Below, in pieces: positions 38,709-40,683 of a stretch of DNA of 64,000 nucleotides. A program made the position numbers and the translations under genes. The DNA comes from Clostridiales bacterium (GTDB taxonomy: Bacteria > Bacillota > Clostridia > Oscillospirales > CAG-272), in NCBI GenBank assembly GCA_012514145.1, contig JAAZAV010000053.1, forward strand, positions 1 through 64,000. The letters are read 5' to 3'. Numbering within the stretch: position 1 is the first letter of the stretch; every line of letters begins with the position of its first letter. The notes below the pieces were generated by a model. That model did not search any database. It saw nothing but the letters and a program-made list of their open reading frames with translations, and had not been told where the DNA came from.

Positions 38709-39014
38709 ATGGCTGAAGATAAGAGACACGAGTCTGAAGAAGAGCTTTACGAGGAAGAGATATTCACCCTGACCGACGAGGAGGGTGTCGAGACCCAGTT
38801 CGCCCTGCTCGGCAGCTGCGAGTATGAGGGCAATACATATCTTGCTCTTATGCCGGTTGACGGAAATGACGATGATTATGTCATTCTCCGCATCGAGGTC
38901 GATGAGGACGGCGAGGAGATACTTGCCACTATCGAAGACGATGATGAGTTTGACAAGGTTGCCGACCTGTTCGAAGACGAGCTGTTCAGCGATATCGACC
39001 ACGACGCCGAGTAA
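38709..39014 (+). CDS. DUF1292 family acidic protein
   Basis: A 101-residue, strongly acidic protein matching DUF1292 (YrzB-like): IFTLTDEEGVETQF, YEGNTYLALMPVD, and YVILRIEVDEDGEE followed by an Asp/Glu-rich tail. Homologues are widespread in Firmicutes, usually near yrvE/yrrK-type housekeeping genes; function is unknown. SD AGGAGA precedes the ATG and a strong hairpin terminator follows. Confidence 0.88.
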   Translation: MAEDKRHESEEELYEEEIFTLTDEEGVETQFALLGSCEYEGNTYLALMPVDGNDDDYVILRIEVDEDGEEILATIEDDDEFDKVADLFEDELFSDIDHDAE

Positions 39015-39039
39015 TCGGCAGCATTAAAAGCCCTACAGC

Positions 39040-39100
39040 GCACCCTCCGCCGCCCATACAAGTCGGTTTATCGGCTTGTACGGGTAGCGGAGGGTGCTTT
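39040..39100 (+). terminator. Long hairpin terminator after the DUF1292 gene
   Basis: GCACCCTCCGC (39040-39050) pairs perfectly with GCGGAGGGTGC (39087-39097), with an inner stem TACAAG/CTTGTA (39057-39062 / 39075-39080). It is followed by TTTGTTATCTT. The following 39101-39228 is very AT-rich, with two nearby copies of AAAATATTC and no gene visible; it leads into the promoter of the RNA gene. Confidence 0.8.
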
Positions 39101-39228
39101 GTTATCTTATGTTTATACACACATTAACCTCATTTTCATCACGAAACGGTGTGTAAATATAATATATGCACAAAATATTCATAAAATATTCGTATATTTC
39201 GGCTATATTATTTATTACGCGTTTGTGA

Positions 39229-39234
39229 TATAAT
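39229..39234 (+). promoter_or_regulatory. Extended -10 promoter of the structured RNA
   Basis: TGATATAAT (39226-39234) is an extended -10 element. The -35 region 17 bases upstream (TATTAT) is poor. The predicted start falls at 39241-39246, exactly where the RNA closing stem begins. Confidence 0.6.
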
Positions 39235-39240
39235 ACAATC

Positions 39241-39489
39241 ACATTGAAAGCCAACCTGCTTGGTTTGTGATGATCGTATAATTAAACCCACAAAGAATAA
39301 ATGGAATCTGGTCTTCCCGTTATGGGTATTGCAGACCTCCTCGCGTACGCCTGCAGTAGTAATTATGTCAGTCACGTGTACGTTGGACGCTGGTAGCACA
39401 AAGTGCGGGAGAGGATACCTGCCTTGCTTATACGTGCAGGGTTTCTTAATTAGCGGTCACACGGCTTGGCGGGGGCTTTCGTTTTTTTT
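39241..39489 (+). ncRNA. Structured small RNA, possible 6S RNA
   Basis: A region of about 245 nt with no protein-coding frame of merit but with paired ends and its own promoter and terminator. GAAAGCC (39246-39252) pairs with GGCTTTC (39474-39480), directly followed by eight T. Going inward, TGTGA (39266-39270) pairs with TCACA (39457-39461), and TAATTAAACCC (39279-39289) pairs with GGGTTTCTTAATTA (39439-39452, with a small bulge). A largely unpaired A-rich zone lies opposite the 39420s. Distally CTTCCCG (about 39312) can pair with CGGGAG (about 39402). A long rod with a central open bubble and a terminal hairpin is the architecture of 6S RNA, which mimics an open promoter to bind sigma-A RNA polymerase. 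The family assignment is by shape only. No tmRNA, RNase P or SRP signature is present. Confidence 0.6.
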
Positions 39490-39498
39490 AAGTGGATT

Positions 39499-39528
39499 CG
39501 GCATGCGCGCATTTGCGCTGCCGTTTTT
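39499..39528 (+). terminator. Second terminator hairpin before the FkbM gene
   Basis: CGGCA (39499-39503) and GCGC (39507-39510) pair with GCGC (39515-39518) and TGCCG (39519-39523) around an ATTT loop, followed by TTTTT (39524-39528). It stands only ten bases after the T-run of the RNA gene and six bases before the next start codon. Confidence 0.6.
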
Positions 39529-39534
39529 ATTTGT

Positions 39535-40683
39535 ATGAGTGAGAATATGACTGAATTCAATGCGGCAGGCGGATATTCATGCACTCTGCCGCCACCCGGC
39601 ACTCCCGATGTCTGGGAGCGTATCGAAGCGGCATACCGGGAAGGGTTTCCGGTGGTGCTATACGGCACGGGGGACGGAGCCGACCGCATAGCGGCGGTAC
39701 TTGAGGGGCGCGGGATTGTGATTTCCGGCTGCTTCGCCTCCGACGGTTTCGTTAGGAACCGCAGCTTCCGCGGTCATACGGTGCACTCCTTCGACGAGAT
39801 TAAGGCTATATTCCCCGACGGTTTTGTGACAATACTTGCCTTTGCGACGGCACTGCCCGAGGTTATGGACAAAATAGACACGGTCGCCGAAGAATCGGCA
39901 TGCTTCTTCGCGCCCCATATACCGGCAACCCCCGATAATAAGGGTGAATACCGTCCTTTCACACGGGGGGACTATGACAGGGAATACAGTAAAATCGCAG
40001 AGGTGAGCCGGCTGCTGTGGGATGAGCGCTCCCGGGCGCTTTATGCGGCGATATGGCAGTGGCGTATGACGGGAGAATTGTGTTGGCTGCGTCAGGCGGT
40101 GGCTGAAACGGTTATGCCCTGGGAAAAATACCGGCACATTGTCGATCTGGGTGCATACACGGGTGACACCGCACGGTTTTTCGCAGAGCGCTGTCCGAAC
40201 CTGATAAGCCTGACGGCGCTTGAGCCCGACCGCCGCAGTTACGCGAAATTGTCGGCGCTGGAGCTGCCCGGCATCGACTTCCGTCCGATACACGCCGCCG
40301 CCTGGGACAAGCGCGACACACTGACGGTACTTGGGCGTGGCGGCAGGGGAATGTATACCTCCGATATGCCGCTGCCCGAGCCGCCCCGCGACCGACTGCC
40401 GCCCGCAGTGCATTATGTGGACGCGCTGCCCGCCGACGAGGCAGTCGACACTGCCGACCTCATCAAGCTGGATGTGGAGGGAGCGGAGATGCGGGCGCTC
40501 AGCGGTGCAAAGCGGCTGATTTCCGACTGCCGGCTCGATCTGCTGATGTCGGTTTATCACCGCTCGGAGGATCTTTTCATGCTGCCGCTCCGGGTGCATG
40601 AAATACTGCCGGAGAAGCGGCTGAGGCTGCTGCGCCCTCTCTGCTATCCCGACTGGGATGTGGTGCTTGCCGCTGCGGAATAA
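39535..40683 (+). CDS. FkbM-family methyltransferase
   Basis: A 382-residue protein. The C-terminal two thirds form a SAM-dependent methyltransferase of the FkbM type: HIVDLGAYTGDTARFFAER (SAM site), LTALEPDRRSY, and IKLDVEGAEMRALSGAK, the family signature. The N-terminal part (about 30-120, VVLYGTGDGADRIAAVLEGRG) looks like a small Rossmann/CoA-binding-like domain seen in sugar-modifying enzymes. FkbM proteins O-methylate sugars, polysaccharides or polyketides. Two starts are possible, 39535 and 39547, neither with a strong SD. The terminators directly upstream raise the question of how it is transcribed. An own promoter in 39490-39534 is not evident. Confidence 0.8.
   Translation: MSENMTEFNAAGGYSCTLPPPGTPDVWERIEAAYREGFPVVLYGTGDGADRIAAVLEGRGIVISGCFASDGFVRNRSFRGHTVHSFDEIKAIFPDGFVTILAFATALPEVMDKIDTVAEESACFFAPHIPATPDNKGEYRPFTRGDYDREYSKIAEVSRLLWDERSRALYAAIWQWRMTGELCWLRQAVAETVMPWEKYRHIVDLGAYTGDTARFFAERCPNLISLTALEPDRRSYAKLSALELPGIDFRPIHAAAWDKRDTLTVLGRGGRGMYTSDMPLPEPPRDRLPPAVHYVDALPADEAVDTADLIKLDVEGAEMRALSGAKRLISDCRLDLLMSVYHRSEDLFMLPLRVHEILPEKRLRLLRPLCYPDWDVVLAAAE

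Follow-up and report, generated by a model that had tools for sequence, protein, structure and literature searches.

The window analyzed here is a stretch of 64,000 nucleotides, and all features described below lie on its forward (+) strand. A gene for a DUF1292 protein (38709-39014; Pfam PF06949, 67 bits, E 2.7e-18), the sole copy found in the genome, is followed by a strong hairpin and a T-rich stretch (39040-39107), which is likely the DUF1292 terminator. This region includes a terminator-like site at 39082-39107, and its hairpin (39040-39097) was visible in a chance alignment with mir-3149. Beyond this putative terminator, which separates the DUF1292 gene from the next feature, lies an RNA gene of about 249 nt (39241-39489). 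Its 5' end was placed from an extended -10 element, TGATATAAT, at 39226-39234, for which the expected RNA start is about 39241. No good -35 element was found for it, the -35 region being poor. The 3' end was placed from a run of eight T (39482-39489), which together with the closing stem of the RNA probably forms an intrinsic terminator. A scan for terminator-like sites detected a second hairpin with a T-run at 39505-39529, between the RNA gene and a gene for an FkbM methyltransferase. Both the extended -10 promoter and the second terminator had been pointed out in a sequence-only reading of this DNA, which gave the RNA a slightly shorter length (~245 nt).

An Rfam search of a 901-nt stretch (38900-39800) under relaxed thresholds revealed an end-to-end match of this locus to 6S RNA (RF00013, model positions 1-187, 28.2 bits, E 0.0012). 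This value is below the gathering score of RF00013 (46.4 bits), which is a curation threshold and not a biological feature, and across the window no Rfam family attained its gathering score. Besides RF00013, no bacterial RNA family matched the 38900-39800 stretch. Matches to mir-3149, MIR403, snoR136 and ST7-AS1_2 were dismissed as chance, as these are eukaryotic families and the scores were far under the cut-offs. In the assembly (2.82 Mb, 85% complete), the locus was the sole 6S match. The Rfam score appears to be under the cut-off because the version in this lineage has diverged and includes an additional long hairpin; the low value fits such a divergent lineage, in which a 44-nt distal segment is an insertion to the Rfam model.

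The predicted fold of the RNA is a rod interrupted by a central bubble. The minimum free energy of a 294-nt stretch was -105.7 kcal/mol, versus -86.4 +/- 5.0 kcal/mol for shuffled sequences (z = -3.87; 0 of 200 shuffles were as good), and therefore the fold exceeds chance. The 5' strand of the closing stem (P1, 39246-39269) pairs with 39460-39480 through three helices: GAAAGCC (39246-39252) with GGCTTTC (39474-39480), CCTGCT (39255-39260) with GGCGGG (39468-39473), and GTG (39267-39269) with CAC (39460-39462). Next to it, the 5' strand of P2 (39271-39285) pairs with 39446-39459, TGATCGT (39271-39277) with GCGGTCA (39453-39459) and TAATTAA (39279-39285) with TTAATTA (39446-39452). The 5' side of the central bubble is a 17-nt, A-rich segment (39286-39302), unpaired in the minimum free energy fold. 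It is followed by an internal (apical) arm (39303-39419) with the conserved motifs GCAGACCTCC and GGACGTTGGGAGC and a lineage-specific long distal hairpin (39343-39383), and then by a small hairpin on the 3' side of the bubble (39421-39442). The 3' strands of P2 and the closing stem (39446-39480) contain an invariant ACACGGC (39459-39465). The helices, A-rich bubble, distal stem and T-run named in the sequence-only reading are thus present where it placed them, with two corrections. The CCC of TAATTAAACCC is unpaired in the predicted fold and lies in the open bubble, at the place expected for a pRNA template site. The GAAAGCC/GGCTTTC helix, predicted at the base of the closing stem, is an extension specific to the window, as the stem ends at CCTGC/GCGGG in most aligned relatives.

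We then considered the element in 59 related genomes. DNA similarity detected it in 17 of them and the RF00013 search gave a 6S match in 44, one apiece, with 25 matches above the gathering score; at the threshold applied, RF00013 matched nothing in some relatives. Where both searches matched one genome, the places coincided (G008, 49.9 bits; G009, 61.2 bits; G054, 51.6 bits). A covariance model, designated R1, was built from the aligned RNAs of the 25 relatives that passed the Rfam cut-off, with the window left out. In the window, all 201 positions of R1 aligned to 39250-39479, for a score of 110.8 bits (E = 2e-25), and nowhere else in the genome did the score exceed 11.6 bits; the R1 E-values are rough, but this gap is very large. 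The RNA is therefore homologous to accepted 6S RNAs over its full length, in sequence as well as in structure. A separate observation concerns two metagenome-assembled genomes, in each of which two contigs carried 6S-like RNAs that differed from one another (L085 and L110 in CALXAO01, E09__bin235; L115 and L121 in JAGAOB01, RGIG8618). These pairs may be either paralogues, like 6S-1 and 6S-2 of B. subtilis, or the result of bin contamination.

Covariation was evaluated in an alignment of 26 sequences, from which the structure was also derived, so that the test is somewhat biased toward it. In the predicted structure, 92.2% of cells were paired, versus 36-47% when the partners were slid by 1-3 columns; the covariation score was 0.283, versus 0.041-0.085 in the slid controls, and both-sided changes occurred in 17 of 34 pairs. 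The CCTGC/GCGGG and GTG/CAC pairs of the closing stem were conserved, and the small hairpin in the 3' bubble had 90-92% of cells paired and both-sided changes. P2 was tested without an alignment because MAFFT blurred this helix. When the strands of 45 thinned sequences were exchanged, the mean duplex energy was -7.86 kcal/mol for own strands and -3.44 kcal/mol for swapped partners. None of 5000 permutations reached the observed total, and the window's own partner ranked first of 45. The same partner-swap test gave 0 of 5000 for the distal hairpin and 0 of 5000 for the internal arm, although thinning removes relatedness only partly. Covariation among relatives, proposed in the sequence-only reading as a check on the helices, was thus observed, and the closing stem, central bubble and internal arm are all supported by it.

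The open 5' bubble carries ACCCACA (39286-39292). In the 26 sequences, a near-invariant ACC[C/T]ACA occurs in this bubble; A39290 and C39291 do not vary, and C39287 and C39288 are at least 90% conserved. Product RNAs (pRNAs) templated by 6S RNAs have a conserved GG at positions 4/5 or 5/6, and an A is located just upstream of the start (PMC8414754). ACCCACA contains the CC that gives GG at such positions. Judging from conservation and the GG rule, we infer a pRNA template at 39278-39291 with +1 opposite C39291, which would yield a pRNA 5'-GUGGGUUU... in which GG falls at 4/5, A39292 lying upstream of the start; the predicted product is 5'-GUGGGUUUAAUUAU.

On the basis of homology, structure, covariation, the conserved template site and the single copy found, the region 39241-39489 (+) is almost certainly the 6S RNA gene (ssrS/bsrA type) of this genome. 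The sequence-only reading had proposed 6S RNA or a new rod-like RNA. The former is borne out by the RF00013 match, the 110.8-bit match to the clade model, the orthologues that pass the cut-off and the covarying helices; the Rfam search that it had proposed, run with relaxed thresholds, gave RF00013 as the best match, end to end though under the gathering score, and no better-scoring different family. A new rod-like family, similar to 6S by shape only, would agree with the subthreshold Rfam score and with the extra 44-nt distal hairpin segment. However, all 201 positions of a model made from cut-off-passing 6S RNAs are matched in the window, orthologues from sister genera score above the Rfam cut-off themselves, and neither RF00013 nor R1 found a second 6S candidate in the genome. 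This possibility is already nearly refuted, and we give it practically no credence.

The low score, together with the incompleteness of the assembly, could also be taken to suggest that this locus is a pseudogene or a second, decayed copy of 6S and that the functional gene lies in sequence that the assembly, 85% complete, lacks. This is very improbable: the invariant positions are intact, the helices are compensated (with the window's P2 partner the first of 45), the -10 element and terminator are good, the DUF1292 neighbor is conserved, and each of the 44 matched relatives has a single 6S RNA. The start of the FkbM gene about 45 bases past the T-run had suggested another role, that of a cis-acting leader regulating this gene. 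Yet two terminator-like sites intervene, and an FkbM relative within 2.5 kb downstream was found in 0 of 86 other loci, in which the RNA itself is conserved. Because FkbM is downstream in none of these loci, cis-regulation is unsupported, and its likelihood appears negligible.

The upstream gene, rather than the downstream one, is the conserved neighbor of 6S RNA. A pattern search based on the conserved apical motifs yielded 101 loci in genomes from GTDB, almost all of them from uncultured gut or rumen Clostridia. DUF1292 was directly upstream of 6S RNA in 97 of the 99 loci with enough upstream sequence, the window included, and also in 27 of 27 family and order loci whose 5' end was located; at the class level it preceded 9 of 30 6S loci. 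The gap between the DUF1292 stop codon and the closing stem, measured exactly in 63 loci, had a median of 37 nt (smallest, 7) and was often below 30 nt. In the window this gap is ~240 nt and includes the -10 element as well as the strong hairpin that resembles a terminator. On the 3' side, a run of at least four T came directly after the closing stem at 34 of 66 loci. Among the papers searched for 6S RNA with DUF1292, none reported this neighborhood. In several close-packed loci (L076, L081, L096, L105, L114, L137, L142, L154 and L166), the stop-codon context GAATAAT includes AATAAT, a possible -10 element of 6S RNA. Among close-packed loci, a -10-like hexamer was rightly placed in 11 of 29, versus 3.1 expected from shuffles, but stop contexts of this type also occurred in long-gap loci. 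One tentative and rather doubtful idea is that in this group of gut Clostridia 6S RNA is locked to the 3' end of DUF1292, perhaps being processed from the DUF1292 mRNA or promoted inside the gene, which would tie 6S output to that gene, and that the lineage of the window uncoupled them by a terminator and its own promoter.

The family to which the RNA belongs suggests how it may act. 6S RNA imitates an open promoter and associates with the housekeeping holoenzyme; its release follows once it has templated short pRNAs (PMC8876501; PMC8414754). In the window, transcription would start from the extended -10 promoter of the gene and end at the T-run, giving an RNA of ~249 nt that would fold into a rod whose central bubble imitates an open promoter. 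This rod would bind RNA polymerase with the housekeeping sigma factor and thereby lower transcription under nutrient shortage. When NTPs are resupplied, the polymerase would template the short pRNA on ACCCACA in the 5' bubble, and the pRNA would open P2 and release the enzyme. Polymerase binding, pRNA synthesis and the physiological role are all extrapolated from the family.

The RNA in the window is a new example of ordinary 6S RNA that is missed by standard Rfam annotation, as are the 6S genes of several relatives. A blind reading of sequence found this real gene, and a clade-specific model recovers it. The DUF1292-6S neighborhood, which is apparently undescribed, offers a practical handle for finding 6S RNA in these genomes, and the closeness of the two genes raises a modest question about how 6S RNA is made in them.

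Compared with known systems, the RNA most resembles the B. subtilis 6S-1/BsrA type (RF00013). It shares with it the closing stem, P2, central bubble, 3'-bubble hairpin and internal arm, a pRNA template with CC giving GG at 4/5, and a monocistronic layout with a -10 element and a terminator. It differs in length, ~249 nt, because its distal hairpin is longer and its closing stem has an additional helix at the base, and in scoring under the RF00013 gathering cut-off. Its neighborhood is also different, as it adjoins DUF1292, whereas in B. subtilis and lactic acid bacteria the reported neighbor of 6S RNA is rarA (PMC8414754). A small 3'-bubble hairpin has been reported for the free form of B. subtilis 6S-1 RNA (PMC8876501), and the free RNA of the window is likewise predicted to have one. 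E. coli 6S RNA (SsrS) is similar in the overall rod with a bubble and in the template logic, but in its free form the 3' bubble has essentially no structure (PMC8876501). Ms1 RNA of actinobacteria also has a 6S-like shape (PMC9130861); however, Ms1 is an actinobacterial RNA that associates with the core enzyme lacking sigma, whereas the match in the window is to 6S RNA.
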